A stretch of 64,000 nt of DNA from Ganoderma boninense (lineage: Eukaryota > Basidiomycota > Agaricomycetes > Polyporales > Polyporaceae). A program made the translations under genes and the position numbers. Each line of letters begins with the position of its first letter. The first letter of the stretch is position 1. The stretch covers positions 4,976,134-5,040,133 of the forward strand of contig CM035304.1 in the NCBI GenBank assembly GCA_002900995.3, in the 5' to 3' direction. The notes beneath the pieces were generated by a model that saw nothing but the letters and a program-made list of their open reading frames with translations, did no database searches and had not been told where the DNA came from. Shown here piece by piece: positions 3,558 through 40,459 of the stretch.

Positions 3558-4693
3558 AGAATATGATACTAGACATACAAATATAGGTAGTGGAGCGAAT
3601 GACAGCTAGATAGATGGAAATATCATCGGTTGCTGACACCAGTGGGTAGAGTGGATGACGTATGCGGGGTATGCAGTGGCCCAGGCAAGGCAAAAACTTG
3701 ACAATGAGATGTATGGGGCGATCAAGCGGGTGGCGGCCAGCCGGCGAGACCGTGTCTGTAGACGGTGTCCGAGGCCTTACACATTGTGGAGGCCACCGTC
3801 CGAGTACACGGACAGTGCGTCCGGGCGGGCTCCCCCGCTTCGCGCCAGACACGGCCGACCGGTCACCACGCCCGGACACCTGTGCTGTACTAGTACCAGC
3901 ACCGCTGCCACAGGTGACATCCAAGACACCGTGTCCGAGGCCCTACACAGTGTGGAGGCCACCGTCCGAGTACACGGACAGTGCGTCCGGGCGGGCTCCC
4001 CCGCTTCGCGCCAGACACGGCCGACCGGTCACCACGCCCGGACACCTGTGCTGTACTAGTACCAGCACCGCTGCCACAGGTGACATCCAAGACACCGTGT
4101 CCGAGGCCCTACACAGTGTGGAGGCCACCGTCCGAGTACATGGTCTGAGCGTCAGAACATAGGATGCTGTATTTCTTACAAAACTCATCATATATGTATG
4201 GCGTTCCCAGCTATATTGTGTTTCCCATGTCGACAATGACAGTGACTATGGCTCATACAATTGTCTGCATCAGATACTTCAGAAAATGCAAAGTACTGGT
4301 GACCGGCCCTCCTGCCTACCATGGGCGCCAATGAGTTTATAGCCCTGAATCCATCATCCGCCAAGCCGTATGTCCCACAAGGCCTGCCAAAATAGATTCA
4401 CTAACAATATAACAAGAGATGGAACAGATACGCAGCATACAGTGTCCGGTCTGATGGTACAACAGCACATACGATGCTCAGAAGCAGCTACATACCTACA
4501 CTTACTTTGCATACAAGTAAGCGCTTACACACCCTCATACACCGTAAGTTCCCACCGACCGGACGGTTCGTACACATCATCCCCGACCGGACTACACCCC
4601 CCCTCATACATGGTCACACCGACCGGGACCGAGGGAGCAGCACGTCTGGCTAATTACACACCCCGGGTGACTGGTAGTTCCAGTATATAACAG
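3558..4693. other. Gene-poor interval with a 166-bp tandem repeat
   Basis: No gene is supported here. The interval holds the 3' flank of the previous gene, the 166-bp tandem array at 3765-4150, and a short stretch at about 4370-4690. In that stretch an open frame with Tyr/Pro/Ser-rich codons could be an upstream exon of the next gene: a GTAAGT donor near 4543 and an AACAG acceptor at 4693 would join in frame. I could not confirm a start codon. Confidence 0.5.
3765..4150. repeat. 166-bp tandem repeat, about 2.3 copies
   Basis: The block beginning GTGTCCGAGGC recurs at 3765, 3931 and 4097, spaced exactly 166 bp. Copies 1 and 2 are almost identical over their length, and copy 3 is cut short around 4150. 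166 is not a multiple of 3, so the frame changes from copy to copy and the array is unlikely to be coding, although an open frame happens to run through it. The unit is GC-rich. Confidence 0.9.
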
Positions 4694-6915: not shown

Positions 6916-6923
6916 CAACCCCC
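6916..6923. repeat. Left 8-bp target-site duplication (CAACCCCC)
   Basis: CAACCCCC lies immediately outside the left end of the KDZ element and is repeated exactly at 17459-17466. An 8-bp duplication is what I recall for Zisupton/KDZ elements. The neighbouring C run allows a one-base shift in the boundary. Confidence 0.9.
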
Positions 6924-7603
6924 CACCTGATCATCACATGTATCCCGGCTAACAAGCCTGACCTGCGGGCCGGGATGCCAGCCTAATTAGCCAGGCTTTC
7001 CCTTTTACCCACATACTACCAGTACGCCTGCCCACTCCCCTTCCCCTCCTTCCGCAAATGGTACGTTCTGCAAGCCAAGATATCTGTGTGTTATCAGTGA
7101 GCTGATAAACATAGATCAGCGAGATAACGCGATTGCCGCCACCCGGGCGTTGAGTCATCTCCCATCAGCCGCCCTCGCTACGGACCTCCCGCCTCGCTCC
7201 CGCCGGCGCCCTTCCCCTGCCGTCGGCCGTCTATGCGTCCTCGCCGTTGCCCACGGCGAGGATGGCTATCTCCCTCACTTCTCCACCTTTTCGTCCCGTT
7301 CCTTCGACGATCCTACTTGCATGTGTCAGTATAGTCCATTGAAAACACCTTTGCTGCTTACTTCTCCCGCTGTCTCTCCTCTGACGCGACTGAGCCGGTC
7401 TCCAAGGCGCCCCGTGTGACGTCAGCATGTCCCAATGGGTGCCTGGGCGTTGAGTATAGGTCGCGCGCCCATCAGCCGCCCTCACTACGCCCATCCTCGC
7501 TGGCGCCCTGCTCCCGCCGCCGCCGGCCCATCCGTGCTCGTCGTTGCCTACGATGAGCACAGTGATCTCTCGCATTTCTTCGTCGTTTTGCACCGTTCTT
7601 TCA
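6924..7603 (+). repeat. Left terminal inverted repeat of the KDZ transposon
   Basis: Matches the reverse complement of 16777-17458 along its whole length. Frames translated from both copies give the same peptides, and the only difference found is CCC versus CCCCC near 7209. An outer hairpin (ATCCCGGC...GCCGGGAT) lies within 50 bp of the end. The TIR has an internal 300-bp-period duplication: two related blocks start GCGTTGAGT at 7147 and 7447, each containing CATCAGCCGCCCTC and GGCGCCC. Apparent ORFs inside it are not genes. Confidence 0.93.
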
Positions 7604-8292
7604 ACAATTTATATTCGTAGCACTTGTACGCTCCTGCCCCTCGCTACTGCACAGTCAGTTCGTCAACTAGACTTGCTCCAATCCGAAGATAACCCCATGA
7701 CGTCAGTGGTCCTCACGGTGTTGAAGATTAAGTAGTTGGCTGCGTATCCTCGAAGCTGAAGTAATCCAGCGACCATCGGAGATTCCCTCGGAGAAGTGTT
7801 GCCCGAACTTGCCCGACATCTCGGAGACCGCCCTCATCTTCCCGACAGTCTGGCCGAGTCTCTACCCGAGCACTGTGGCGTTCGGAATGCTGGCTCACTC
7901 GGACCTCTTCAGCTAGGTCGTACTCGCATATCAGAAGGGATGTACCGAACACCACATTGTGGTGGTGGTACATGGCGTCGAGCCTTGGGGATAGCTGACC
8001 GCGGTGGCCCGCCATGCGCCTGATCGCATGTACTGCCCGACGCTCGCGTATTTTCCGAGAGTATCTTCGATGCGTATGAAGCGAAGTGTTTGCCGATGAG
8101 TTATGGGTGCTTGTTGACCGGAGCGCTGAGGAGTGTTCATCAGTGGAGGTGCGCGGTTCCGTCAATGTTCCAGGCGCGTGAGATAACAACAGCTGTCTGT
8201 TAGGCGTGCGAACGTGCCGCCATCGGAGTCAACAAAGGGAGTCACAGCCACACGTCCAGCGCCGCCCTTCGTTTACCCTCTCCCTCATCGCG
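7604..8292. other. Left subterminal region and 5' flank of the transposase gene
   Basis: No gene supported. It holds many short CTCGGA/CCCGA-type motifs at 7800-7900 and one arm (7950-7991) of a subterminal inverted repeat shared with the right end. The region is expected to contain the transposase promoter and transposase-binding sites; that is inference. Confidence 0.5.
7950..7991 (+). repeat. Subterminal inverted repeat, left arm, with palindrome ACCACATTGTGGT
   Basis: These 42 bp recur inverted at 16372-16413 with very few differences. The core is a near-perfect palindrome (ACCACA-T-TGTGGT) followed by GGTGGTACATGGCGTCG. Position inside both TIRs suggests a binding site for an element-encoded protein (inference). 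Confidence 0.8.
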
Positions 8293-11200
8293 ATGGCGAA
8301 GGCCTCACGCCATGTCCACGTTCGTGCCCCGAAGCCTTACGCCTCTAGCCAGGGTCGCCCCCGCACATTCCACTCCAAATCCTACACTACCTCAGACATC
8401 CTCCTTGATCGCCAGCAGAGGGAAGAAAACTTGGCCAACAACCTTGTCGGTGAGCTACGAATCCAATTTATGCTAACTCTCGTTCTTACCTGTCCATAGG
8501 GCTGAATCCCCAGACCATTCGCACAATTGCTTCCATGCGTGGTGGGGATCTCCCATCGCAAGTCAACGACACTGTCCCGATGGATCTCGACGACCTGGGA
8601 GAGGTGGCGGTTGGAGGAGAGGATGAGGATTGGGAGGACATTGAACACAATGAGATTGATGTGCGGGATTTGTTGCGGATAGGGTGAGTGGAGGACCTTC
8701 AAGCTGTGAACTAAGCTGACAATGCTTTGAAGCGCGCGTACCCGCAGGTACCACGACACACGTAGTTGGGGTGAGCGTGTTCGTCGTCTTGAGGCGAATT
8801 GGCAGGCTGCCCTCCCAGACATCATCCACGCATATTTACGCTGGCGTTATGCAACCCCCGTCCCTCCCACTACTCCTCAAAAGCTGTCAGAGTCTACCCT
8901 ACAACCTCTGTGTGCCATGGAGCCCCAGTCTACAGAGCGCGGTCCTGAGTCCTCCTCTGAGATTCCGGCGTCTTCGCGTCCACCAACCTCTGACGAAAAC
9001 TCAGAGGACGCCCCAACCACACCGGAGGTTGGGTCTTTTGACATCGAAGTCCTTGATCTTTTCACCCTTGCTGAGACTGTCTCCATCCCGTTCGGTGACG
9101 CGAAGACGCGCGTTGAAGCCCTCGCACAGAGCGGCTACCTGGCAGTGACACCTTCACGGCCCACTCTGGCAATATCTTTCAGCACGCTTGAACTCATGCG
9201 ACGTATCCGACTCTTCAAGGCTTCATTCAGTACGGAAGCCTTTACCAAGGTTCTCTGCTACTATTACACGGTGCGTATATTGTTATCTCATACTACAAGC
9301 CATGACACTCTCCCCATAGATGCCATACCTACGCACCATCCGCAACCATCTTGCCGACGCTTTTGAGATCTACCTGGGCATCCAACGCGCTGTGAAGAAG
9401 AGCGTCGTGTGCGCTCTTGGGCGTGACACGCCTGACTGGCGCGCTAAGAATTCCTGCCCGGCGTGCTCGTATGAGGTGAGCCAGGCCAGCGTCACTCAAT
9501 CGGCGTGCGCTAACGCTAGTCAGCTGGTGGGCGAGTCGCCGCAGACATTCTCACGGATGTACTGCATGGATGGCAACAGCTCCCTCAAGCGCATGCGACC
9601 CGTCGGTGGTCGCCAGGTTGGTGACGCCCGCGTCTTCACCGACAGCGACTATTACCTCCCCGACGACTTCATAAACAAGTACGCTGACGAGGTGCGGGTC
9701 AGGCCATCCCGTGGTCTCGATAGTGCTGGGAGGAACGAGGTCTCCGATGATCTAGGTAGTAATATTCACGATGACGAGACTGGGGGCGAGGCGCTTGAGA
9801 TGCGCGACCCATGTGCCAGCACCCTTACTGAGGGTTCTCCCAGCCACGTTCCTGCGAACCCCGAGGAGCCCGCACCACCACTGAATTCCGCCACATCCGC
9901 CCCTGCAATTGTTCCGCTTCCCTCAGCACTGACACACGGACCAGTGGATCCCAACGCCCTTGACACCAGCCACGCCAACGACGTATCTGAGTTCTCGACC
10001 ACTGTAGAGGGTGATCCCACGGATGGCGACCCCGACTCTACCTGCACGAAGAACTGGAAGGCGGCGCAGTCAGATGAGAAGAAGAAATCGTGGGATATCT
10101 TCGAGGAGAACGGCGTCTTCGTGAGTGCCTGCCCTCACGGCTTCATTCTCTGGATCATCGACATGGTGCGAAGCGGTGAGGTGTAAGTTGGCTTATTGTT
10201 TTGCCTCATGATTATCCCCACTTACACCTTTTTATCAGCGCAAAACTTCCCTTGGCTACTGTAGCGAAGGCAATGCAAACGTTCGGCCATCGCACCTTAG
10301 CCGCGTACGATGTCGGCTGCAGCCTTGTCAAGACAATTCACAGCAGCAGCTTGGCCGCGGCATTCAAGGAGTCCGGTTCTCGGGTTTGCGTCCCCTCGTT
10401 CCACGGCTATTCTCACGAGTACAGCTGCCAGATAAAATACCACCCGATCAACATCACGGGGACAGGGCTGGAAGACTTCGAAACTATGGAGCGGCTATTC
10501 AGCTGGTCCAATCAGCTGGCCCCCCTTATTCGCTACTCCTCCGCCTACCGTCGCCGCCTTTTCATTGACCTCTTTGCGCAGCAGTGGGATGACGAGAAAT
10601 ACACTAACCTCGCAAAGATGTTATACGACAACTTTCGCCAGGCGTTGAAGATCATCGATGAGACTGGCATTGCGGTCGCGGAGGCTATGGAGGCCCAGAA
10701 TCTCTCTCCCGAGGACCTTGTCCGCTTCGCGCAGGAAGAACGTACGTATCTTGCGACCCTGGGGAAGGAGGACACGAGGGACTTGCGTCATGTCGCGTAT
10801 GTGGAAGCCTTGCAGGAAATACGTTCGATCAGGTGAGTCTGATGCCAGTCATCTTCACATTTTATCATTAACGTACATCCGCAGCGAGAAGCTCCATCTC
10901 ACAACCACGGTGTTCATGGGCACCACCTTCGCACCCACGCAGTCAGGTCCGGTCGACTACGCCGGAGAAACCTCGAAGACTCGCCGTCTCGAAACCAATC
11001 GGCGTTACCTTGACGAGCGCCGCAAGATGCTCCTCCTCGACATCATCCAGATGGAGCGGGGTCTCGGGATTGACCCTGAGAATCGTTGGCAGCCCAGCGA
11101 TCCTGACTACGTCCGCACCGTAGAGTACATCAACGACCGTAAGTATCACGTCGCAGTAGCTCACCTGCAGCGCCTCGTGGTACAGCGGCTGTTTGAGCTG

Positions 11201-11943
11201 CATAAGATGAACCTCGCGCAAACCGGTATGTCCCTGGATTCGAAATGGGGTGCCATGTTGACGTAAGATTTGCAGGTTACAAGCTCCGGCAACAGATTGC
11301 GAAGAATTTGCAGAAGAGATCACGGGCCATTCGAAACGCGATCAACGCATACAACGAGGCCGCTCGCGCGCTGAAGGAGCCTCGTCCGGCGTTAGAATGG
11401 GGGAAGGTATCCCATTACCAATTTCTCCAGCAGTTCAAGCTACTGCGCGGCGCTGATGATGGCGTCTTGGAGAAGGAGTGGGCGCAGCCGGCTGTCCGGG
11501 AGACCATGCGCCAGGCGCGGCGCGTTGTGCGTGCTCACGAGGAGCTTGAGCGGGTCAACATGCAGTCTCGTCGACTGCTTACATCTATTCACGACGAGGA
11601 TCACCTCTTCGCAGACGTTCTCGCTGGCCTGCAGCAGGAGGACAGTATTATCTACGGGGCAGCGCTCGAGTTCGCCACTCGCCGCCGACGAGTGAATGCC
11701 CGCCTCCTCGTGACCCTTGGGAAGCTGCATGCGCACTCGCGGTTCACAGGAGAGACGACACCGGGCCAGCGCGTCGGGACTTCCCTCCCTCCAAACAATT
11801 CAAGAACCATTGGAGACACGGTCCGGGGGGGAATGGGGGCATTACATGAGGATGACGATCATCTAGGCGGTGAAGAAGATGACGAAGAGGTGCAGGCGGA
11901 GATGACGGCATTGACGGACTTCGTTGCTGGATTGCGAATGTAA
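8293..11943 (+). CDS. KDZ transposase
   Basis: Eight exons: 8293-8449, 8500-8683, 8733-9270, 9320-9475, 9524-10182, 10239-10832, 10885-11225 and 11276-11943. They total 3297 nt, 1098 aa. Every junction is GT...AG with matching phase. Expected family features appear in order: an N-terminal region before a cysteine motif (NSCPACSYE, about residues 337-345), first catalytic Asp in YCMDGNSSLKR (about D361), second Asp in LAAYDVGCSL (about D589), a His/Tyr-rich segment (FHGYSHEYSCQIKYHP), and Glu in LEDFETMERLFSW (about 646-649). A helical C-terminal region and an acidic tail follow. A low-complexity Glu/Pro/Ser insert separates the first two Asp residues. It is assumed to cut and paste the element within the nucleus. 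No stop or frameshift breaks it. The start at 8293 is the second in-frame ATG-like site; the first is not ATG. Confidence 0.92.
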
Positions 11944-12392
11944 TCACGTTGTGTTTGGTATTGTGCAATGTCATACTACAGTTTGCGACACTCATCGAGT
12001 TGGATGATTATGTATGGAGTGAGTTGAGCATGTTTAGACTGGTTAGACCTGCCACTACCACACTCGAAAACAGTGTAACTTTATTGGTGGAAACCTCAAA
12101 CTCATGCAAGTGCGTCCGGGAGGATGGATTGTACTTCACCGCCGACCGGAATGTGGCGGAATGCATTGGCTTGTCCCTTCCCTAAAATGAATGTTCTCTC
12201 TAGAACACAAAAGACGGCCATGCGTGCACGCTGCATATCTTCCATACAAACGTGAACATGAGGATGAACATGTGCAGAGAATCTGGTTCTTTCGCAAGGG
12301 AAGGACGCTCGGCATAAATGCCCAGCGTCTGCACCTGAGCTGATCCCTGTCCCTCTTCACCGCCACTGTGTGGCAGGCCCTCCCCGCGCGCG

Positions 12393-13836
12393 ATGCCTGA
12401 CGACACCGACGTCTGCTACATAGTGTTAAGTAAAAAGAAGGGCCATGGTATCTACTTCGAACGGTAAGCCACCTCTTTGCTAATATTAGTCGTCGATTGA
12501 TGCGATTGGGGACGCTGATGGCCTCCTCTGTCAGGCCATCCAAGGAGGGTCAACCCTCCGCCACTTCAGTCCTCCCCATCGTCGTCATCGTTCGGGGGTT
12601 TAAGGTCGCAGGATCTGTGTATGCCCTCCAGCAGGAGATTATCCGGGGCCAGTCCGAGCCCATCAAGGTGGACGAACTTCGGACCGCGTTCACTCAGTCC
12701 TCGACGGTAGCCAACCTCTTCTGTGGTAGGAAGGACATCTATGCGTTTCGGGGCGGCAATTTGGCGGGGATATACATAGGTTTTGACTGGTAGGTCATGG
12801 TGTATTATCCTCTCTCTTCTCACACCATAACTCTGTGCAGGGTCAGAGAAGTCCAGGCCGTAACTCGCCAGGGCGCCGGAAAGGAGTTCAAGAGAATGAA
12901 CACATTTGGTGAGGCCCTTCTTTACATGCTCAGCAAGGAACACCTCGCCCCAGAGTATTCGGCCAAGCCCCCCCCTCTCGCAAGGTTCACGGAGTCTGAC
13001 AATCCGGTGAATGTCGCTCGCGCTGAGGTCTCCCCCGCGTACATCAAAAGCGAGGATCGTTCTTGCCCCCCTTCTCCCATCAAAGCTTCTCCCACACGTC
13101 CGTCATCGCCGTCGAAGGCTGCTATCCCTCGTGAGTCCTGCCACGTCGCCCCGCCGACTTCTCCGGTCAGGGCACCACTCCCCAGCACTCCGACCGTTGA
13201 ACGCGGTTTCCCATCTCATGCGATACAGCGAGGTGCATCACTCCCTCCGGCGTACAGCTCTCCTCCCCGTACCTCCTCTCCACAGCGCTCCCTTCCCTTC
13301 CCATCCAACAGTCATGGTAACTGGTCTACAGAGGTAGATGACGATGTCCTTGCTGATCGCATGCAGTGTAAGTCGGTATTTTAAAGGTGTTGGTCGCCGT
13401 GGCTGATACGATATTGTTAGACTTTGGTTTTGCCAATGACGATGACGAAGACGCACTTGACTACCCGAGCGGGGCTCTAGGTCATGCCCCTGCGGCCTGG
13501 CAACCCCCTCCCGCCGCAACCTCGTCCGTCGTGCGCCCGTATCTCGGGAGCACGAATATCCTTCGGCAATTCCTTCACTCATGCTCTACGCTTGCCGACT
13601 CACCTCCGCTCATCGTCAACTTCGGTCCAGAACTCGACGGGTGGTTCCAAGGCCGGCGGACTTCCCCCGACCACCAGCTGCGCATCCTCCAAGCGTGGGC
13701 CTGGACTGGCACTCTGCAGGAGTTTACAGGCGTCGTCTGCGCGCACCCTATTGAACTCTCGTTGGAGGATGCGAGGAAGTTGTGGGGTTTGTTGTTCGCT
13801 GAGGCTAGGCGTCGTGTAGGCCCGCCGGCTATGTAG
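12393..13836 (+). CDS. Transposon cargo: RNase H1 N-terminal (viroplasmin-like) domain protein
   Basis: Four exons: 12393-12463, 12535-12789, 12841-13367 and 13421-13836, giving 1269 nt, 422 aa; all phases agree. Residues around 95-135 carry the Gly/aromatic pattern of the RNase H1 N-terminal domain: AGIYIGFDWVREVQAVTRQG then GKEFKRMNTFGEALLYML. In that family GIY...W...V...K.F.TF.EA..Y binds RNA-DNA hybrid or dsRNA. A second, weaker half-copy may open the protein (DVCYIVLSKKKGHGIYFER). No RNase H catalytic domain follows. Instead there is a Ser/Pro-rich linker and a compact C-terminal ~140 residues (VNFGPELDGWF...LQAWAWTGTLQEFTG). It lies 450 bp downstream of the transposase in the same orientation, inside the TIRs. 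A nucleic-acid-binding role in transposition is inference. Confidence 0.75.
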
Positions 13837-14109
13837 TTGTGCGAAGTCATATGGCGTCGCACATGCTGCTCGGCTACTAGGTTTTTACGCGACTATTTCT
13901 GCTCTGTAACGCATCGCTGTGTGTCCGAGTCTCGCTGTTCTGTCATCAAATATCATTGTGTTCGAGTGGTTACGTTCTCTGAAACCACGACCACATAAAT
14001 CCCCCCTCTGAAACATCACGCAGCCTATGGTCCATTTCCCCCCATTTCCCTTCCTACTTGTGGCTGTTCCGGCACAGTCCTTCTTTCTCCTGCTTGTGGT
14101 CTTGACGCT

Positions 14110-15930
14110 ATGGTTCGCTCCCGTGATTCTACGACGGGTCTCTGGCTTTCCGCCAACAAATCTAGCGCAAAGCGTGAGATACGAAAACCATGGCGGCATC
14201 GCAACAAGGTCACCCTCACCGACGCTGAGAAGGCTGCTCTGAGCCTGCGTCGGAAGGAGCGCCGCGAGGCCCTTGCCGCTGACCTCGAAGACGCCCATGA
14301 GAGGACTTGGGAGATGGCGAAGGAGATAAGGGCACGCCACCCTCACCACACCCCCGACCACTTCCACCGCGTCATCCTGCAGCAGTCTCGTGTCAACCAG
14401 ACCAGGAGGAAGGTGAACAGGTGGAACACGTACCTTCACGACCGCTTGAAGGCCCTCAATGGAGGTGAGTCCTACATATATTTCTCGCCCATGTTTCTTT
14501 TGCTGATCACCCGCAGATCTATCCCCAGGCTCCGAGCGCGTTCGCGTCAACAACCGCGAAGCCACTCAACAGATCTCTGCTGAGTGGAACGCGATGACGC
14601 GGGAGCAGCAGGAAGAGGTTACGAAGGATGCGGTTGTCGAACTGGAGGCGCGAACCGAGAACAAGAGGACCGCCCTCAATAGCGTCCCAAGGTCGGTGTT
14701 GAACGACGTTCGGTTAACGATGGCCAACATCGAGCGGGAGGTACGCCTCATAGCTGTATTTTCCGTGATTACTACTGACGCAGAATAGCTTGAAGAGCTT
14801 TATAGCCGCACGGGATATGCAACGCTGATTATCGGATGCAGGGAGTCTCTTAACATTCCAAACCAGCCTCACATTTTCTGGACCAACCCCCGTATCCCCG
14901 ACTTCATCATCACGGTCACTCAGCACACCGGCCTCGAGCTCGCGTTGCGTATGGAATCATTCCTCATATGTGGGGTTCAAGGTAAGCCTTATCCATGCTC
15001 ATTGGGTGGGTGAGTAACTGACTCTTCGTTGTAACGCAGGGGCGTCCACCAACTATCTTGAAGCACTCATGAACCTCAAGAAGGAGGCAAGGGCAGTTAT
15101 CAATTCCTGTCTTCGTAAGTCTGCAACTGCGATGCATTTCTGTCAAGAGCTAATGTTGTGTTACAGTCGCGGCGTCCACGCGCGGGCCTGTGCGCATCTC
15201 GTACACCAACTTTGACGAGCATGTCACGTTGTGCGTGGGCATCATCTGCGAAGCGTGGCCTCTCAAGAGGTTTTGCCCGCCTGGCGATATCAACTCCCGG
15301 CCGGAGCTTGAGATCCTTATCCAAGCATTCAAGACTGGCGCTGCAAAGTTCCGGTCCCTCGGCGACGAGGAGTGGATGGCATGGAAGGCTGAATGGTTTA
15401 GATCCAGGGAGCGCCAGGTGGTCAGCGTACCCGAGAGTGAGTCCCCCCCAACGTCGCCCCTTGCACTTCCTCCCAACTTGTCGTCGTCATCAGCCTCTAC
15501 GATCCCTGCGGGATCCGCCTTCGAACCTCCGCCAGCATCATCCCCCTCCACTGTCACAATCACTTCGGCCACCCCCGATGTTTCGTTTTCCCCTGCGCCT
15601 GCTGTTGCCGTCCCCTCGACAACCACCTCTTCTCGCCGGGCTGGGGTGGTATTTATCCAGACGGACGTCGTCACGGGCCCAGGTGGCGAACGTATCGCCA
15701 TTGCTAAGAGGCCGCGCAAGCCTCGTACATCAAAGGCGTCGACAGCGCAGCCCCTGCCTTCCACTTCCACTCAAGATGCACAGCCTCTCCTGTCGATTTC
15801 CAAGACGCACAAACGGTCGTCTGCGGCACGGGACAAACCCGAGAAGCCTCGCAAGAAGCGCGCCCAGGCAGTGGACTCTCCTCAGCCGGCGCCCGCGGCG
15901 ACGTCCTCCACACCGGTGACGAGCGCGTAG
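14110..15930 (+). CDS. Transposon cargo: unknown protein of about 536 aa
   Basis: Five exons: 14110-14464, 14517-14740, 14789-14981, 15040-15114 and 15167-15930; 1611 nt in frame. The N-terminal third is highly charged and helical (DAEKAALSLRRKERREAL, then EEVTKDAVVELEARTENKR). The middle looks folded (GYATLIIGCRESLNIPNQPH, WTNPRIPDFIITVTQHTG, RISYTNFDEHVTLCVGI). The last ~180 residues are Ser/Thr/Pro-rich and end in basic runs (RPRKPRTSK, KPRKKRAQ) like nuclear localisation signals. I do not recognise the family; as far as I recall, similar unnamed proteins occur in Agaricomycetes, but that needs a search. It is inside the KDZ element and codirectional with the transposase. The start at 14110 is the first ATG in frame; an extra upstream exon is possible. 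Confidence 0.7.
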
Positions 15931-16776
15931 GAGACAGGTGGCATGCATAGAGCATTATGCATCACATTCCAGCATATTTACATTATCATTGTTTCTTTCG
16001 TGACATAATATATGCACCTCCCCCCTCTTGTCTAGCCTTGCATTTCTTCGGACCACGTCGGTTTCGCCCCTGAGGTAGAAGTTAATGTTGTCAATATGGC
16101 CTGCGTGTACCTACAACAGTATGATGAGCATATATTGAATCTGCGAGACACTCGGATGGACGCCAACTTTCTGACCCCACGGCTGTGAACGTGCGAGCGT
16201 CTTTGCTGGACTTCCATAAATTTCCGAGTCGTAGTCCATGTGACCGACGTCCCCGGCGGCGTTCAGTATTGTCGGCTAAACAGGTGCGCACCGAAGACCG
16301 TCGGCAAGGTTTCCGTGTGAACGATAGACCTCGCAACTAATACAAAGCCGGTCGCACGCACCTTCAGGCCCTCCCCAAGCCCCGACGCCATGTACCACCA
16401 CCACAATGTGGTGCTGGTACTCCAGATCTTCTTTCGCTGTAGAAAATCGTTCTGGACAGAGGGACTAGCAGAGGTAGACAGCGTCAACCCCTCCATATGA
16501 CAATGTTTGGGTAAAGGCCAGGCCTGGGCAATAGAATCGACTCTCGAGGCAATGTCCGAGGTGTCGGAGGGTGTCGGACATTCGTTCGCTCGCAGCTCCC
16601 ACGGCCGATATCGTGATCCGCAACTTGCGCAGCCGGGCATACTCAACGCCGCCCCAAGCGCTGACGTCACTTCGAGGGCTGATGATCTTCTGAGTGAGTA
16701 GCCCATTACGACGCTCCAGGAGGGCGCGATAAGAGTATTACCATTATGACTATTACAAGAGAATCAGTTACTTTCC
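15931..16776. other. Right subterminal region of the KDZ transposon
   Basis: No gene supported, although a 147-codon minus-strand frame exists. It contains the right arm of the subterminal inverted repeat (16372-16413) and GTCCGAGG/TGTCGGA-type motifs at 16555-16590 that echo the motifs near 7800-7900 in inverted orientation. Confidence 0.5.
16372..16413 (-). repeat. Subterminal inverted repeat, right arm
   Basis: Reverse complement of 7950-7991, including the ACCACATTGTGGT palindrome and GGTACATGGCGTCG. Confidence 0.8.
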
Positions 16777-17458
16777 TGAAAGAACGGTGCAAAACGACGA
16801 AGAAATGCGAGAGATCACTGTGCTCATCGTAGGCAACGACGAGCACGGATGGGCCGGCGGCGGCGGGAGCAGGGCGCCAGCGAGGATGGGCGTAGTGAGG
16901 GCGGCTGATGGGCGCGCGACCTATACTCAACGCCCAGGCACCCATTGGGACATGCTGACGTCACACGGGGCGCCTTGGAGACCGGCTCAGTCGCGTCAGA
17001 GGAGAGACAGCGGGAGAAGTAAGCAGCAAAGGTGTTTTCAATGGACTATACTGACACATGCAAGTAGGATCGTCGAAGGAACGGGACGAAAAGGTGGAGA
17101 AGTGAGGGAGATAGCCATCCTCGCCGTGGGCAACGGCGAGGACGCATAGACGGCCGACGGCAGGGGAAGGGGGCGCCGGCGGGAGCGAGGCGGGAGGTCC
17201 GTAGCGAGGGCGGCTGATGGGAGATGACTCAACGCCCGGGTGGCGGCAATCGCGTTATCTCGCTGATCTATGTTTATCAGCTCACTGATAACACACAGAT
17301 ATCTTGGCTTGCAGAACGTACCATTTGCGGAAGGAGGGGAAGGGGAGTGGGCAGGCGTACTGGTAGTATGTGGGTAAAAGGGAAAGCCTGGCTAATTAGG
17401 CTGGCATCCCGGCCCGCAGGTCAGGCTTGTTAGCCGGGATACATGTGATGATCAGGTG
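16777..17458 (-). repeat. Right terminal inverted repeat of the KDZ transposon
   Basis: Reverse complement of 6924-7603; 2 bp longer owing to a C5 instead of C3 run. Ends ...GATGATCAGGTG, followed directly by the second copy of the 8-bp target duplication. Confidence 0.93.
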
Positions 17459-17466
17459 CAACCCCC
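17459..17466. repeat. Right 8-bp target-site duplication (CAACCCCC)
   Basis: Exact copy of 6916-6923, immediately outside the right TIR. On the gene strand it reads GGGGGTTG inside the codons for Trp-Gly-Val of the interrupted integrase-core gene. Confidence 0.9.
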
Positions 17467-17885
17467 CAGCGACCTTGAACATCGTTTTGCTTGAGATCCA
17501 ACACGGCTTGCAGGCGGTCCGACACATTTCCTTCCTTGACTTTGTTTCGTACAGTGGGCACGCCAAGCCGGGCGCGCAACTTGTACATTGACCCGCGGCT
17601 GCACCGTCTGCGGTGTGAGGACATAGTAAGGCACGGATACAGTTGAACAAAACAAACCTCATTGGACAGCCCAGTGAACGAAGTCTGGCCAACTGTTCAC
17701 CGACCGACAATCCCGCTCCATCCTTCTCACGATTAAACTGTTTGAATAACCGGACTAAGGCCACGTCGTCGAGAGCGAGTGCTTGCCGAACGCATGTTCA
17801 GCCCATGTCCTTCATAAGCGTTGTTGGAAACGAAAGACTCACCAAGCTTTCCTCCATACTGGTTGTGCCCAGCAGAATTGACCAT
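17459..17885 (-). pseudogene. Integrase-core-domain gene, 5' part (split by the KDZ transposon)
   Basis: Exons 17885-17843 and 17781-17658, then 17607-17459, which runs into the transposon. The start is the ATG at 17885-17883 in a good context (GAGACCATGG). The segment encodes a helix-rich N-terminal domain (LARLRSLGCPMRR, YKLRARLGVPTVRNK, VLDLKQNDVQGRWG), plausibly a DNA-binding module ahead of the catalytic core. The partial exon is 149 nt, its remainder on the far side of the element (6915-6870) is 46 nt, and the sum keeps phase with the next exon. The interruption therefore falls inside a coding exon and explains the loss of the full gene. The most 5' exon is less certain than the rest. 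Confidence 0.75.
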
Positions 17886-31175: not shown

Positions 31176-32660
31176 CGTTTGCGTTGATATTACTACTGCT
31201 CTCGCATTTGCATGCCCACGTTGGAGACGTTCTCTGTATGCTTATATTTTTGGGATATTCGGGACTTTGGGGTTTTCGCATGTAATTGTGCCTTCGCTCG
31301 GACGGCCGTACTCACCACTCTATTGTATGCTTTCCTTTCGGGTGGCTCAACCCACAATGTACATCACACCTACATCGCATTTCGAACATGGGGTGCAAAG
31401 CCCACTTGGAGGAGGGTTTGTTAGTTGGTTAATACATTCCTGCCTAAAAGCTACGTAGGAACTCGCAGAACTCAGCGCGGCAGAAGCGCTTCGAGTGATG
31501 ACGTACCGAGGCCTACGCACGCGATCGGGCCTGTGCATCTTCTATTCGTCTCTCTCTCGCGTGCATATATTGTATACCCAGAGCCACCCTCCTCGTCTTT
31601 CTTTCCCTCCTACCATCAGCGGTCTTCAACGTTCCTCAACGTCGAGCCCTGGCTACCCTCTCAGTGAGCGAAAATTCAGACTCCTTGGCAGGTGGTAGCA
31701 GTAGTTGGATGGTCGGGAGGTATAGGTCATATTCTCAGTCCTCTCTCTGGCTTCTCGTGTCTGATTGCCTTCCAGCTGGCAAAATGGAATGCCACGTTTT
31801 AGTTTGCACATTAGGCCATGTGCGATGCGCAGCAAGACAACTGAAAATCTTTGCAACTCGACGAAGAGAACGCGCGCAATGGCCATCCAGCGTACCAGAA
31901 TCGAGATGACGTTGCACACCTACATGATGCAGATAAGGTAAGGTGTTTGGTGCGTCACCGTTGTGTTGATACCATCATCTGACCACACCGTCAACATCAA
32001 TGTTCGACAAGGAGTGTGCAGGACATGCATTGTGCACCGCCCTTGCATATACATCGCACGACGCACAGCCTCTACAGGCTCGGACTTGCCAGCATCGGAT
32101 CGTGCGTACTCTAGTAACAGGCGTAATCACCCAAGATTTTGTACTCAGGATGCTCCTCATCACCATGTCAACCCATAAATCTTTTGCGCAATCCCAAGCC
32201 CATCGCAACGTTAACGAGAATCACTGCCATTGCAAGGTGAAACAGCACAGCACGGATAACCCAAGGACGATGGGCCGACTCCACCCATTCGTCGACATGA
32301 TGCATGCATGCATCATGTCCCACAAGTTTTCATAATCCCAACCCGGTCTCTCCCACGTGGTGCTGTCATCCCAGCTCAACAGCGGCGTTGTGCCATCACG
32401 CCATTCTTACTCGTCCGTCGCTGCACTTGGTCTTCAGCTGTCTGCCACTGCAACGTACTTAGGCGACCGGCGAGTCGGCGATTTTGCCCAGCGACGCGAT
32501 GATGGTGCGTCGGGCCGGAGTCTCCTTTGCTCCGTCGCCGCGTTCAGTTACTTAAATGGCGGCAGACGAGCAAGCATGCTCGACGTCCTCTTCTCCCCGC
32601 TCGACTCGACCCTCTAGGCTCTCCCGTCTGTCTATAGTCGGACTCGGCCAAGCGCGCACC
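31176..32660. other. Intergenic stretch
   Basis: No supported gene. Ends in the promoter and leader of the first S41 peptidase. Short open frames at 32556-32650 run into the real start but precede its signal peptide. Confidence 0.45.
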
Positions 32661-35600
32661 ATGGTCCCCTTCACTGGTCGCTTCGCCGCTCTGGTGGCAC
32701 TACTCGGTTATGGCGGTGTCGGGCTTGCGGCGCCCAGCTCTGCGTCTGACCCGTGCGTCAAGGTCGCGGGGAAGACGTTCGTACCCCCAGCCGACGCCCT
32801 GGCATGCTACAAATCTTTCCCGTTCAACGAAACCCTCCGGCAGAACGTGCTCACCGTCGTCGACCGCGTATTCAACTTCTACACGTTCGAGGACTATTAC
32901 TTGAATTCGCCCCCTCCGTTCCAGGATTCGACGGTGAACATCCGGGCTCAGCTCAAGCGGATCGGTTCCACTAAGTACAAGGTGAGTCTTGTGGTCCGAC
33001 ATTCGATCCCGCCTTCTATCAATGTTTGATTTGAATCTGATGAATATGATTGGCGCAGACGGACTTTGACTTCAACTATGATTTGTACAACGTCGTGAAC
33101 CAGCTGAATGACGGACACACGCGTATGTTCACATTTGGTCCCAAACGTGTCCTTCAATGCTCAGTGTTAACATCGCATACGTGTTATTTTTGTTTCCAGT
33201 CTGGATTACCAACTGTTATGGTGTCTACGAGAACTTGCTTCCCGCGCCCCTCGTCACGCTCGAGCAGAACGGTGCAGAGGGCATGTACGTTGTGCCCGAT
33301 CTCGACCAGTTTATTCCCCTCCTCGGCACCAACTTCACCGACTACTTTGCTTCCGCCCAGTTCGACTGGAAGCGCCTTGCTGGCGCGCGCGTGCTCGAGA
33401 TCGAGGGCGAAGAGCCCTACGCCTACGCCGAGCGCATCGCCCACACCCAATCCGGCAACTACCTAGACCACGGTGTACGCGTGAACAGCGTGTTCAGCAG
33501 CTACCGGATCTCTGGCACCTCGTACTCGCAGCGCTTTGGCGACATCGCGGGCTCGGCGTTCCCGGATAAGGACACGTTGACGATGAGAGTGCATGCGGTG
33601 AACGCGTCGAAGGCTGAGACGGTCAAGGTTCCGTTCCTCGCCAGCTTCGCCGGCACCCCGTTCACCAACGGCGCGGACTTGTGAGTGTAACGTAATTCAT
33701 TCTAGGTTCGCATGCTGATCGGGTGTGGAACTGCAGCTGGGCGAAGAACTGCGCTCCGAACGCGCAGACGAACGGCGTCGATTACAAGGACATGGGGGAG
33801 ATGGAGAAGCTCGTGAAGCGGACGCCGGAGAGAGCCCGCAAGATGGCCAAGGCGAGCATCATTGATAAGCAGAAGGTCGCGGTCGGCCTCCCTACCCAGT
33901 TCGAGCCGACCTCCCCCAAGCTCAACGGCAGCGAGGGTGTCATCAAGTCGTACATCCTCCCCGACGGCAAGACTGGTGTGGTACGTGCGCGCAGATGCCG
34001 TGGAGGGCCTCTGAACCTGAGTTCTGGATGCGTTGTCTCCAGATGTTCGTGAGCTCGTTCGAGCCGGACGATGCCAACGCGTTCATGACCGACGTTCAGA
34101 CCATCTTTAAGCAATTCAAAGCCAAAGGCGTTTCTCAGCTCCTCGTTGACCTAACGAACAACGGTGGTGCGTGTACTTGTGGATGGGTCCTTTTTTGGGT
34201 GGATACTGATGTCCCAACAGGCGGTTATGTCTGTCTCGGCCAATTCCTTCACGCGTTCCTCGTCGGTAAGAAGAATCTCGGTGACTTCAAGAACCCGTAA
34301 GTATCCCCTCTTTTACATGTGAAATCTTATCAACCATTTTGTACTATGCAGCGGATTCCAGTCAACCATGCGTGCCAGCCCCCTCGCGCAGAAGATCCTT
34401 GCCTCGGTCATCTCTCTGGGTCTCAACGACACGATCTCGTTTTACACTCCGGATAACTGTGCGTATCTTTCACTTGTCCCACTCACCGGCGGAGCTGATG
34501 ACATTGACGGTTCTACAGGGGCGTTCTTGAACGATACCGCCATGCCATTAAACCACAACTACATGACACCAACGACCACGAGGAATCTTAATGGCAAGGC
34601 ATTCACGGAGTCCCAGCGTTTCGCTGTACGTTGTTTCCTGTTGTTTCGACGTGATTTATTGAGAAGACCTTCCACAGGATGCTTGCGAATCCACTTTCAA
34701 CGTCGACATTCCGGAGGAGCCTTACTTCGCTCTCGAGTGCGTGACTTTGCTCGTCGAACGGCCTCTAATGAAGCTCATGGGTTTTAATTGACAGCAAGAT
34801 CGCCATCGGTGAGCACGACCGTCTCCAATTCCGACCTTTTGATCTGATCCATTCGGTTTAGTCGGTAACGCCAACTGTGCATCGACCTGTGCGATGTTCT
34901 CCACCCTCATGAACGAGCGCCACAACACGGCCATCGCTAACTTCGGTGGCAAGCCTGGGTCGAAGTTCGAGTACAAGGGTATGTGCTGTGCCTCCGATAG
35001 CAGACGGATATACAGCATCTCATCATGCATTGCTGTTGCCTAGGTATGGCTGGTAACCAGGTTCTAGAATGGTTCGACCTAGACTCGGAGATCAAGACAG
35101 CGAACCTCAAGGATGTATGTAACCTGCCCATTTTTCCGGAACTGAGGCGCTGACATGAAACGCATAGGATCCTCTTGCTCCTCCAGACCTGTGAGTGTCC
35201 GTACTTAAAAGAAGGACAGGGAGTTCCTAACCTTCTTGCTCGCAGCCTCGTCAACGCGAACATCCGGTGAGTCTATATTCACAAACTCCGTATTGCTTTG
35301 CCTGACTGATGCTTGTTTAATCAGCCATAACTGGCGCATTGGTATGATGACATTTTAAGAGATCCTTTTGGAAACTTACAGTCTTTTTTGTGCAGCGTAC
35401 AGCTTCCTCGATGAGAAGACGCCAATCGGTAAGTCTGCCCATAGAGTCTTGTGGGCATCATTAGCTGACCGGCTCCGCCAGAGTACAAGTCCGAACATGC
35501 TCGCTGTAAGTCACGACGCGACGTTTCCTTGGTACTAATCGAAATCGAGACTGACATCTACGCTAGTTAGGTTCCCGTACACGCTGGAGACCTACAACAA

Positions 35601-35731
35601 CCCGCAGAACCTCTGGACATTCGCGTACGTATTCCTCTTTGCACAGTTATCCTCTCTCTCCAGCTGATCGCGACTGTTCATGCAGGGCATCCAAGCTGTT
35701 CCCTTCGGACAGCTACTCTTACTCCTCATAG
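32661..35731 (+). CDS. Secreted S41-family peptidase, copy 1 (668 aa)
   Basis: Nineteen exons, all GT...AG and in phase: 32661-32981, 33059-33122, 33200-33680, 33737-33980, 34043-34166, 34221-34296, 34352-34458, 34519-34625, 34678-34736, 34795-34808, 34862-34978, 35044-35114, 35168-35190, 35246-35266, 35325-35341, 35396-35428, 35482-35505, 35567-35624 and 35686-35731. The total is 2007 nt. A signal peptide is clear (MVPFTGRFAALVALLGYGGV, cleavage near AAP). The C-terminal half carries the tail-specific-protease core: GVMFVSSFEPDD, LLVDLTNNGGG, and IAIVGNANCASTC, where the Ser is the likely nucleophile. Many N-glycosylation sequons (NET, NFT, NAS, NGS) fit secretion. The 10 small 3' exons (14-117 nt) are unusual. 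Its neighbour at 37343 is a paralogue. Substrate unknown. Confidence 0.88.
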
Positions 35732-37342
35732 CAGGGGGACGCTCTTATGTTCCTCGAGGATAAAACTGGTGATATTCTGGCGGGCAGTCACGCCAAAGAC
35801 TCCTCCGCTCCTTTTGAGACCTACTACTCCGAAGGTCTTCTTCGTCCACTCCTTTCGGTACTTCAATAATCACTCGGTTATGACTGGGCAGCTGCTCCTC
35901 TCGGCCTTATGTTCCACTCTGAGTCCATAATGGCGCTAGCCATCATTCCTCGCAGGTACGCCGTTGACCACTCCACAGTCGATGGTGAATACTTTGTAGG
36001 CGCTGCAGACTTCTCGTCATGATTGTATTGAAGCCGAGCGATAGTGCGGTTCCGACAAATTTTGACGTTGTGCTGGACCCGTTGCCAACGCTAATGCCGA
36101 AAGAAAAGAGGGCCTCTCCCTTATTTACCACTCTCTTGAGACCAGAGTATGCCTGTTGCTCTTTCTTCTATTGAAAGTCATGCTTGGCAAGCTCTTCCAC
36201 CTTCGTTCCCATCTCTGCTTACATTTGACTCCTTTACGAGCATCAACGTCTCAGAACTCCTTGACAGATCTCCGCAAACCCCGCACACCCTGGAAGACGG
36301 ACATACATCCTTGGCGACATGCCCCAGTCCAACAAGGAAGCATTTCTCCCTCAGATGTAGGAAGCCCGGCGGGGCGCGGCGATATGTCGACTCATACTCA
36401 CCTGACAGATGCCTTGTCAGAAGGAAGCGAAGATATGAAGGCAGCGGTGAGAACAGACTCCACGGTACAAGGCTCCGTGTTTATGGAGACGCAGGCGTTT
36501 GCGCGGACTCCTTCTTCATGGACGGCCCCGATAAAGTTTACCTGAGTTAATGATAGAAACAATACAAACGGGTACAAAGGCAGTGGAAGCACCATGGTAA
36601 GAATGGGAAAGACGGCATATGATACCGTTCGCGATCATGCCGGCGGATTAGAGAAGCTTTTGGTAGAAGCCCCTCAAAAGCGCTGGGACGATAACGGCTT
36701 GTGTTGCTCTGTTACCATCATCCCCTCACAGCCACCAGGTCCAGCGGTGAGCACGCCAATATTTCTCTGCTGGTCAGGTTTACTGACGAGACCTCGAATA
36801 ACGTCGGCATGCCCGATTCATATGGCTTGAAGACGAAGGCGGCGCAACTCATCACTTATCGCGCAACCCACGAGCTCACCCAGGAATGAGAAAACGCCTG
36901 AAAGCAGCACACAGTTCAGCATGCACAGGGACCTCGGCCCACACCGCTCGTTCATAAAGCCGTCCGTCCCGTTTTCTCATCCCGCCCCTACTCCACATGG
37001 TTCTATCGCTCCAGAGACGCTGCTTCTCGAGAGCGATGCGACGCAGTCCATCTATTCCTGCCCGTCATCCCCGCTTTGGAGCAGGTGATCATACCCAGGA
37101 ACTTCGCCAGCCCGAGCCGAGGCAGTTGATGATGATGTTCGAAATCGCCGGGGTAATGCCCCCTTTCGCTCCGTCCGAGCGCACAGATAAATGACCGGCC
37201 CTCGGGTGCGCACGTCCCCTCGTCGGTCCTTCTCCTTGACTTGACTCTCGAGGCTACGGCGTGTCCTCTGCGACGCTAGGACCGGTTAACTGGGCTCTAC
37301 CGTCTCTGCATACGCGGACTCCGATTCGACCAACCTCACATT
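35732..37342. other. Interval between the two S41 peptidase genes
   Basis: No gene firmly supported. Plus-strand frames at 36156-36545 and 36594-36889 have passable composition (for example SLLVRFTDETSNNVGMPD near 36755) and might be remnants or exons of a small gene, but no in-phase splice set was found. Confidence 0.35.
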
Positions 37343-40300
37343 ATGGTCTCCTTGACTAGCCGCTTCACCGCTCTCGCGGCGCTCCTCAGTGCTCTCGGTG
37401 GTAGCGGGGTCGTATTCGCGGCGCCCGCCGCCGCGGCCGACCCGTGCGTCAAGGTCGCGGGGAAGACGTTTGTCCCGCCAGCGGACGCGCTTGCATGCCT
37501 CAAGTCCTTCCCGTTCAACGAGACCCTCCGGCAGAACGTGCTCACCGTCGTCGACCGCGTATTCAACTTCTACACGTTCGAGGACTATTATTTGAATTCG
37601 CCCCCTCCGTTCCAGGATTCGACGGTGAACATCCGGGCCCAGCTCAAGCGGATCAACACGACCAAGTACGCGGTGAGTCTTGAGTGCTCGCTGGAGTGTA
37701 CTGTGGGGCTGCGCGTCGACGGAGATTGATGTGACCGGCGAGCGCAGACAGACTACGACTTCAACCACGATTTATTCGTGTTCACGAACCAGCTGAACGA
37801 TGGTCACACCCGTACGTCTGTCTTACACACCTGTATGCGCGTAGCTCCTTGGTATTCATTGTGCTCACACGCGCGATATCCTCAGGCTGGCTCCCGTCTT
37901 GCTACGAGACTTTCCAGAACTTGCTCCCTGCGCCAGTTGTCACGCTCGAGAAGAACGGCGTCGAGGGCGTCTTCGTCGTCCCCGACCTGGCAGAGTTCAT
38001 CCCTCTCCTCGGCAGCAACTTCACTGACTTCTTCAAGTCCAAGAACTTCGATTGGGAGCGCCTCGCCGGCGCGCGCGTGCTCAAGATCGAAGGCCAGGAT
38101 CCCTATGTGTACGCGGAGATGATCGCGCACACCCAGTCTGGCAACTACCTCGACCACGGCGTGCGCGTGAACAGCGTGTTCAGCAGCTACCGGATCTCTG
38201 GCACCGACTTCTCCCAGCGCTTCGGCGATATTGCAGGGCCTGTGTTCCCAGATCTGGAGTCGCTCACCATGACGGTCCAGGTCGTCAACGCGTCCCGGCC
38301 CGAGACGGTCAAAATCCCCTTCCTTGCCAGCTACGCTGGCGCAGACTTCACGAACGGCGCAGACTTGTGAGTAGCGCGCAATCAGTCGAGAACATGGGGA
38401 GAGAGCTGACTGGTCCCGTGCGCGCGCGCAGCTGGGCGAACAATTGCGCGGCGAATTCGGGAACGAACGGGATCGACTTCAAAAACTCCGCGCAGGTGGC
38501 GAAGCTTACCTCTGACGCACCGCTCAGGGCGCGGAAGCTCGCAAAGGCGAGCATCGTGGATCTCAGCCAGAAGGTTTCGGTCGGCCTCCCGTCGCAATTC
38601 GAGCCGACGGTCCCAACCGTCAATGGCAGCGAGGGCGTCATCAAGTCGTACGTTCTGCCTGATGGCAAGACTGGTGTGGTGCGTACTCGCATGCCGATCG
38701 AAACGAGACGCCTTTTGTCGGCTGCTTTCGTGTGCTGAACATGGGCTGCCATTCACGCTTCCGGTAGATGTTCGTTGGCTCATTCGAGCCGGACGACTTC
38801 TCTGGCTTCCAGACCGACGTCCAGGGCTCATTCGCCGATTTCAAGTCAAAGGGCGTGTCACAGCTCATCGTTGACCTATCCAACAACGGTGGCACGTGTA
38901 TTTCTGGCGTAGTTCTTCAGGCGCGTTTGTGCTGATGCACGCATAGGTGGATTTGTATGTCTCGGCCAGTTCCTTCATGCGTTCCTCGTTGGCACAAAGA
39001 GCCTTGGCACCTTCCAGAACCCGTCAGTACAATTTTAACCCTTTATCTCAGCCCAAGTCGAATCAGTTCCACATGACGCAGTGGCTTCCAATCGACAATG
39101 CGCGCGAACCCTCTCGCACAGAAGATTGTCGCCTCGGATATTGCGCTGGGCCTCGACGATAACGTCTCGTTCTATACCCCGGACAACTGTGCGCTCTCTA
39201 TCTGTGCTACACCGCCTTGATGATGGATAGACTGACCATAATCACTTTACAGGGTCGTTCTTGAACGACACGGAAATGCCGTTAACTCACAACTACATAA
39301 CACCCGCCAGCACCAGGACCATCAATGGCCAGCAATTCGTGGAGTCCCAGCGCTTTGGCGTGAGTCGCCCCGCGTTACTATGAGACACGAGTTACTCAAT
39401 TCAATTTATTCAGGACGTCTGTGAGACCACCTTCGTCGTCGACATTCCGGAGGAGCCGTTCTTTGCACCCGAGTACGTAGCCTTGCTCATTGTAGACAAC
39501 ATGGAATGAGACTAGACTCACTGTGTCCGAACTCTAGCAAGATCGCCATCGGTAAGCACGATCACTTCTGGAAATTTCGTGATCTTATTTAATTTCATGA
39601 CTTCAGTCGGCAATGCCAACTGCGCGTCGACTTGCGCGATGTTCAGCACATTGATGAACGAGCGCCACAACACGACCATTGCCAACTTCGGTGGCATGCC
39701 GGGAACTCAGTTCGAGTTCAAGGGTACGTCCCGTGCCGCTGTTATCGCGTCAGTGCTCCTTTTCTCATCTCATCTCATCTCTGAATAGGTATGGCTGGCA
39801 ACCAAGTTCTGGAGTGGTTCGACATCGACTCGGAGATCAAGACCGCGAACCTCAAGGATGTATGTACCCCTGCTGAGCGCCTTCTCGAGATCGAACAGTG
39901 CTCATACCTCTTGTAGGACCCTCTCGCTCCTCCTGATCTGTGAGTGTCCACGCTGGCTGGCAGAGTAGAAGTGGAGTGCTGACCTTTGTTCTTGCAGTCT
40001 CGTGAACGCAGATTTCCGGTAAGCCTACGTCCTCGGGTTCAGCATAAGGAATTATCCAACTAACCGTTTTTAACCCAGCCACAACTGGCGTATCGGTACA
40101 CCTTTCTCAACGTACAATTTCCGCTCAAAACTGACAACTCGTTCTTGCAGCATACAGTTTCCTCGATGAGACGACACCGATCGGTGAGCCCTATGCCTTT
40201 ATCACCGAGAATGACTTGCTAACATAGTTGCCCCAGAGTACCGTTCCGAGCGTTCACGCGGTGCGTACTGATGCAACGTGCCCTTTGCCATACTCTGACC

Positions 40301-40459
40301 ACTCCATGAATTACAGTCAGGTTTGCCTACACGGCCGAGACCTACAACAACCCGCAAAGCCTCTGGACGTTCGCGTATGTATTTTCTTGCAAACCCTATG
40401 TAGATTTGCCCTTCGACTGACTTTGGCTGGTTTCCAGGGCTTCCAAGTTGTTCTCTTAG
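37343..40459 (+). CDS. Secreted S41-family peptidase, copy 2 (664 aa)
   Basis: Tandem paralogue of the gene at 32661, with the same 19-exon plan: 37343-37672, 37748-37811, 37886-38366, 38432-38678, 38768-38891, 38947-39022, 39082-39188, 39253-39359, 39414-39472, 39538-39551, 39607-39723, 39789-39859, 39917-39939, 39998-40018, 40079-40095, 40151-40183, 40237-40260, 40317-40374 and 40438-40459. Sixteen of 19 exons have the same length as in copy 1; only exons 1, 4 and 19 differ. Signal peptide MVSLTSRFTALAALLSALGG. Conserved active-site segment IAIVGNANCASTC. Intron 5 (38892-38946) begins GC rather than GT, the only non-canonical donor in the pair. The C-terminus is 8 codons shorter. Most divergence lies in introns and the signal region. 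Confidence 0.88.
38892..38946 (+). other. GC-AG intron in S41 copy 2
   Basis: Frame and comparison with copy 1 (GT donor at 34167) require the donor GCACGT at 38892. The GT five bases later (GTGTAT) would shift the frame. The acceptor is CGCATAG. Confidence 0.75.

Follow-up and report, generated by a model that had tools for sequence, protein, structure and literature searches.

A putatively autonomous KDZ-superfamily DNA transposon with long terminal inverted repeats and two accessory genes in the nuclear genome of Ganoderma boninense

Cryptococcus KDZ1 is described as an element of ~11 kb with a 241-bp terminal inverted repeat (TIR) and an 8-bp target-site duplication (TSD), KDZ2 as ~9.2 kb with a 139-bp TIR and KDZ3 as ~10 kb with a 169-bp TIR, the TSDs of KDZ2 and KDZ3 being 4–8 bp (PMC12810828). 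Kyakuja elements of Agaricomycetes are characterized by a 7-bp TSD, lack of a TIR, carriage of TET/JBP and CA..TG ends, and Dileera is given an 8-bp TSD there too (PMC12730594). Accessory genes are frequent in fungal KDZ elements according to a passage of PMC12477816 that cites Iyer and colleagues. The single long copy of the Pleurotus Helitron helpo1.3 is presented in PMC4289320 as having an extra stretch of 10.7 kb in which capD, capE (viroplasmin, PF01693) and capF (RNase H-fold, putative transposase), described as Helitron-captured virus-like genes, stand between inverted repeats. Galileo/Foldback elements of Drosophila combine a P-superfamily transposase with long, internally repeated TIRs (PMC3573991).

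The locus described here lies in a stretch of 64,000 nucleotides (the window), in whose numbering its outer features are as follows.

6924-17458, the element, the span between the two 8-bp duplications
6916..6923, no strand, left 8-bp TSD CAACCCCC
6924..7603, plus strand, left TIR of 680 bp with terminus CACCTGATCATCAC (BLASTN)
7942..7991, plus strand, subterminal inverted repeat arm lying inward of the TIR, pairing with 16372-16420
16372..16420, minus strand, second subterminal inverted repeat arm, pairing with 7942-7991
16777..17458, minus strand, right TIR of 682 bp (BLASTN)
17459..17466, no strand, right 8-bp TSD CAACCCCC

When 6924-7603 was aligned by BLASTN with the reverse complement of 16777-17458, identity was observed at 680 of 682 columns, the sole difference being a run of CCC versus CCCCC for which sequencing error is also possible. 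The length and identity of this match exclude a chance origin. A reading of the locus made from the letters alone (the sequence-only reading) had described inverted copies differing by one C-run between identical 8-bp flanks, and base-by-base alignment agrees with it: CAACCCCC lies directly outside both arms and the arm match halts at these borders rather than extending past the TSD. The exact termini of the element are CACCTGATCATCAC...GTGATGATCAGGTG, and the subterminal arms share 92% identity over 50 columns. The left TIR contains two modules ~300 bp apart, with GCGTTGAGT at TIR positions 224 and 524 and CGTTCYTTC at positions 374 and 671. A search of the genome (55.6 Mb, 74 contigs; very common words skipped by the tool) with the left TIR arm matched this element's two arms only. 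Elsewhere in the window, tandem repeats with periods of ~84 and 166 bp are present at 2354-2996 and 3762-4153, and two ~3-kb neighbours in direct orientation (32614-35633 and 37290-40383) share 69% identity.

Immediately to the right of the element, the following feature was identified.

17467..17797, minus strand, part of an exon of a multigene-family member, interrupted, the frame going on in the left flank below 6923

When the two flanks were joined through a single copy of the duplication, a minus-strand frame of 126 codons resulted, with a stop 16 codons beyond the junction; the end of the joined frame was taken as a splice site and 123 residues were used for comparison. The joined peptide gave no match in a Pfam search. 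It gave 30 matches in the genome, two of which were the window's own halves, and 17 of the 28 others cross the junction; the remaining 11 stop short of it, most being upstream pieces for which the downstream piece is listed separately. The restored exon frame and the 17 matches across the join indicate that a 10.5-kb piece was inserted in a coding exon, and restoration of the exon frame of a multigene family by the empty-site join is independent evidence of this insertion.

Between the arms, three genes were modelled at GT-AG borders from reading frames and relatives.

8293..11943, plus strand, KDZ transposase gene (spliced reading frames, PF18758), exons 8293-8449, 8500-8683, 8748-9270, 9320-9475, 9524-10182, 10239-10832, 10885-11225 and 11276-11943
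12393..13836, plus strand, gene 2, four exons (12393-12463, 12535-12789, 12841-13367, 13421-13836), 422 aa
14110..15930, plus strand, gene 3, five exons (14110-14464, 14517-14740, 14789-14981, 15040-15114, 15167-15930), 536 aa

The unbroken 8-exon KDZ gene that had been read between the arms does assemble stop-free once seven GT-AG introns, each 48-64 nt long, are removed, giving a product of 1093 aa in which the KDZ transposase domain PF18758 scores 235.7 bits against a cut-off of 26.6. The picture of a one-gene element, however, had to be abandoned, as two more genes are present at 12393-13836 and 14110-15930. Among relatives covering the respective columns, D356 is invariant in 13/13, as are C334 and C337, and D584, E641 and E644 are invariant in 14/14. 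For the cysteine cluster (CxC) that accompanies KDZ transposases on the N-terminal side of the core, a CxC1 match reached 13.4 bits in the spliced transposase and 17.1 bits in one exon, below the cut-off of 26.9, which was exceeded in the relative C4 (29.1 bits) and not in C24a (24.9 bits). Pfam reported no P-type transposase family for this transposase.

A Pfam search of the genome for KDZ, in which 150 of 154 candidates were scored, gave 152 matches, with at least 100 KDZ places among the matches listed. The present element is a deep single branch among its relatives, the nearest being 57% identical over the whole exon, with values as high as 60% where only part of the exon is compared. An exact 8-bp TSD together with a CACC terminus was observed at 13 of 13 insertions, comprising this element and 12 resolved at both ends (C3, C16, C6, C4, C1b, C2, C1a, C8b, the C11 pair counted as one unit, C24a, C7 and C8a); at C7 (41 kb), C8a (44 kb), C24a and C11 the outermost bases alone were compared, and C5, C14 and C24b were excluded because their ends were not both resolved. 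Base counts at the 13 target sites revealed no obvious consensus. A search for further genomic copies had been proposed with the sequence-only reading; at the sensitivity used, nothing outside the element matched the TIR arm, and the 12 related insertions are alike in the kind of terminus. The terminus CACCTGATCATCAC occurs 17 times exactly in the genome and 45 times with at most one mismatch, versus 12 for a reversed control.

In the nine elements for which both arms were read, TIR length ranged from 401 to 1299 bp. TIRs of 680 bp, which had been called unusually long, are thus ordinary for this genome's group (9/9 measured), and the description does hold against the 139-241 bp of Cryptococcus KDZ1-3 given in PMC12810828. 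A direct repeat at an offset of 291-321 bp was present in six of the nine TIRs, C6, C4 and C1b having none. The motif CGTTCYTTC was seen 10 times against 0.15 expected and GCGTTGAGT nine times against 0.03 expected, both expectations being flattering as the motifs were picked after the TIRs had been seen. Since both recur in a single orientation within TIRs, TIR length appears to track module number in part, although C4 (853 bp) does not fit this relation. A third candidate, CCCATCAGCC, was discarded as a common TIR motif, being present among the nine elements in the TIR of this element only. Long, internally repeated TIRs might also be expected of a foldback-type structure or an inverted segmental duplication that is no KDZ transposon at all, but the 8-bp TSD at 13/13 insertions, the conserved termini and the KDZ transposase make such an origin extremely improbable, and the locus is treated below as a KDZ transposon.

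Several of the related loci have unusual structures. At G000:C11:336904-353527 (L064, L065, L089, L090), two related KDZ elements stand head to head in inverted orientation; the 8-bp duplication ATTTTCCT is common to the outer ends and the inner TIR at 344465 has an unrelated flank, as if two ends of the same kind had been used and the pair had moved, or arisen, as a single unit. The insertions at G000:C7:387143-428464 and G000:C8:232364-276221 (L085-L088) span 41 and 44 kb, have matching TSDs (GAAGAGGC and GGTGTCAG) and were presumably stretched by nested insertions. At G000:C4:3328760 the terminal 14-mer occurs in exact form but without a partner. At C8b a 259-bp inverted match (L077 425-683, L078 1418-1676) lies outside the duplication-bounded unit, which has to be set against the interpretation given below.

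Gene 2 encodes a putative, divergent domain of the RNase H1 N-terminal (hybrid-binding) type, a linker rich in S/T-P-x-K/R and a conserved C-terminal domain of unknown fold. In this copy the linker has six S/T-P-x-K/R motifs versus 0.63 expected from shuffles. Apart from this element, sequence search alone detected gene 2 at C3, C5 (as two pieces), C24 (as two copies) and C7 and nowhere else; inspection of the interval separating the transposase gene from gene 3, however, revealed a gene 2 member in seven of seven readable elements (window, C3, C5, C7, C24a, C6 and C4). The C5 copy is interrupted by a retroelement-like insert, and the piece upstream of this insert alone was used in alignments. 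PF01693 (RNase H1 N-terminal / viroplasmin) scored above cut-off in C5 and C7 but fell short of it in C3 and C4, and PF01693 gave no match for the window's own gene 2, C24a or C6, and the window's gene 2 had no match to any Pfam family. With a profile of the seven members, the three top-ranked PDB matches were all RNase H1 chains, 1qhk leading at E 2.9e-4 and the next two following at E 0.0056 and 0.07; 1qhk is yeast RNase H1 and 3bsu human RNase H1. With a five-member profile an unrelated region of the kinase SIK3 had ranked above RNase H1, which came first with seven. A protein-database search with gene 2 gave nothing at E 0.01 or 0.001 (~8000 candidates scored), and an AlphaFold model of the C-terminal exon alone (mean pLDDT 50.9) was too poor for use.

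A lax genome-wide search with PF01693 (E up to 10) produced 25 matches grouped to 21 places, many of them weak. For eleven of the 21, versus 0.6 expected, a listed KDZ place is no more than 8 kb away, a limit of the analyst's choice, and five of the 11 include an above-cut-off match. Each of the 11 has a possible partner in a KDZ match downstream on the same strand, that for C8 being the KDZ at 248506, which is not the nearest, and at 10 of the 11 there was no TET/JBP match within 15 kb. RNase H1 N-terminal matches upstream of other KDZ transposases include G000:C26:42278, C24:26834, C15:54163 and C11:191435, among others. L053 (G000:C24:19474-22686) is a rearranged partial near-copy of the C24a gene 2 region with an AT-rich short-repeat array. 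In the open-licence literature no report was found of a hybrid-binding-domain gene as a KDZ accessory (one in print elsewhere is possible), of an RNase H1 hybrid binding domain tied to fungal transposons or of viroplasmin as a dsRNA-binding suppressor linked to RNase H1, nor, among the best-matching items of that literature, of viroplasmin together with KDZ.

The predicted product of gene 3 has a divergent HMG-like region followed by a proline/serine-rich C-terminal tail. At approximately residues 96-157, sub-threshold matches to HMG_box or HMG_box_2 were observed in six of six pieces scanned, in none of which was the curated cut-off of HMG_box reached. A PDB profile search with the HMG region was not significant, an HMG protein appearing at E 0.79 behind unrelated proteins, and a protein-database search gave nothing at E 0.01 or 0.001 (~8000 candidates scored). 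Iyer and colleagues (2014) reportedly found a divergent HMG protein to be encoded by KDZ elements, and if so gene 3 is a known accessory; no direct description of an HMG protein in KDZ elements was found in the open-licence literature, only a reference title.

Matches to gene 3 (48 in all) fall into 16 places in the genome by the analyst's grouping, and 13 of the 16 have a listed KDZ place no more than 8 kb away; the order and orientation KDZ-gene 2-gene 3 recur in other elements of the genome. Transposons do pick up genes, and on that general ground genes 2 and 3 could be passengers that contribute neither to transposition nor to silencing. Against this, gene 2 is present in 7/7 readable elements (the C5 copy being split) and gene 3 lies near KDZ at 13/16 places, which argues for a long-standing association of both genes with the transposase; we regard passengers as improbable and genes 2 and 3 as accessory genes of the element.

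A genome search with PF12851 (TET/JBP) gave 29 matches, 27 of which lie within 6 kb of a listed KDZ place; the element itself contains none of the 29, and around each of the 16 places with gene 3 there is none within 15 kb. One TET/JBP-bearing KDZ transposase is located ~7 kb before the window (G000:C1:4966082-4968834). Among the 100 listed KDZ places, TET is found near 28 and gene 3 near 13, with no place having both; chance would give this outcome at ~1%, although the loci, being related, are not independent. In a tree restricted to this genome (21 of 30 loci retrieved), elements with gene 3 group with C14 and with L009, L010 and L028, which have long branches and no known gene 3, whilst L006, L007 and L030 fall outside the gene 3 group, the inner forks being partly open; no TET-labelled locus matched well enough for entry in the tree.

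The two arms of this element have no substitutions in 680 TIR positions, whereas those of eight relatives have 48 in 6293 compared positions, a pooled rate from which ~5.2 would be expected in 680 bp (Poisson P ~0.006). Substitutions are present in the arms of seven of the eight relatives, C4 having none (0 in 851). The 48 comprise 45 transitions, and 28 lie at CpG, with 28% of C/G positions lying in CpG; this is the pattern of methylated-CpG decay. These data support, without proving, an element younger than the pooled relatives and no more than that, and the recent insertion proposed in the sequence-only reading has the same standing, since gene conversion would also keep the arms identical.

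An old insertion whose arms look young through conversion between them would be consistent with arm identities of ~97-99.7% in all nine measured elements despite transposases of the relatives only ~45-60% identical to that of this element (exon compared), and with a TIR that matches nothing else in the genome, which is odd for a recently multiplying element. Conversion evidently does not wipe everything, given the substituted arms of 7/8 relatives, and the three intact frames and the otherwise unbroken interrupted exon point to recency, so that we consider an old insertion rather unlikely. Slightly less doubtful, but still unlikely, is a relic that no longer moves, structurally complete yet either silenced or devoid of active transposase; the single match set for the TIR would agree with it, as would changes in related TIRs that are mostly transitions and over half at CpG, as expected under methylation. 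All three frames of the present element are intact, however, and its CpG observed/expected ratios of ~1.05 in the TIRs and 0.99 over the element show no sign of methylation decay. A complete and probably young transposon is the preferred reading.

Taken together, the TIRs, 8-bp TSD, intact transposase, two further intact frames, restored exon and relatives in the same genome indicate that 6924-17458 is very probably a complete cut-and-paste DNA transposon of the KDZ superfamily in a fungal nuclear genome, and it is predicted to be autonomous. This accords with the sequence-only reading, in which a KDZ transposon of complete structure and an 8-bp duplication had been proposed. In the proposed mechanism the transposase would bind the ~300-bp TIR modules, cut at the CACC/GGTG ends and insert with an 8-bp stagger. 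Judged from its domain, the HMG-like protein of gene 3 may bend or bridge the long TIRs, and that of gene 2 may bind RNA:DNA hybrids or dsRNA through its hybrid-binding-type domain and so shield the element or its transcripts from silencing. On a broader and distinctly speculative proposal, to which we assign a low probability, KDZ transposons would carry alternative anti-silencing modules, either TET/JBP or hybrid-binding, with this element of the second type and the Pleurotus 'viroplasmin' genes representing such an element. If so, TET/JBP dioxygenases would undo cytosine methylation and hybrid-binding proteins would capture RNA:DNA hybrids or dsRNA, blunting RNA-guided silencing.

The transposon class is known and ordinary, and accessory gene 2 is the interesting part. 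New are the hybrid-binding-type gene, the group-wide occurrence of long TIRs of partly modular build, and a division of the KDZ elements in this genome into a TET type and a gene 3 type. The locus provides a fully delimited, possibly autonomous example of a three-gene, long-TIR KDZ group, and 13 exact insertion sites in one genome are useful for defining ends and target duplications. The KDZ accessory repertoire gains a putative hybrid-binding-domain gene, and alternative counter-silencing modules become testable.

The long, internally repeated TIRs resemble those of Galileo/Foldback (PMC3573991) in anatomy only, the transposase here being KDZ and not P-superfamily. With TET/JBP-bearing Kyakuja the element shares a KDZ transposase and CA..TG ends, but it differs in its 8-bp TSD, its 680-bp TIR and in having no TET/JBP match. 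By TSD and TIR it would be Zisupton-like and not Kyakuja as characterized in PMC12730594, Dileera being an alternative that the 8-bp TSD fits. The helpo1.3 stretch is similar in size, in having three genes with a PF01693 gene named between the others, in its RNase H-fold putative transposase and in its inverted repeats; likened by published description alone (PMC4289320), it may be a nested KDZ element of this group, which would offer a simpler reading of that case of 'Helitron-captured viral genes'. In common with Cryptococcus KDZ elements, the present element has a KDZ transposase, TIRs, an 8-bp TSD (as KDZ1) and a length of ~10 kb, and unlike them it has 680-bp, partly modular TIRs (401-1299 bp in its group), two accessory genes and CxC1 only at sub-threshold level. 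By size and TSD, Cryptococcus KDZ1, as described in PMC12810828, is the nearest described mobile element found.
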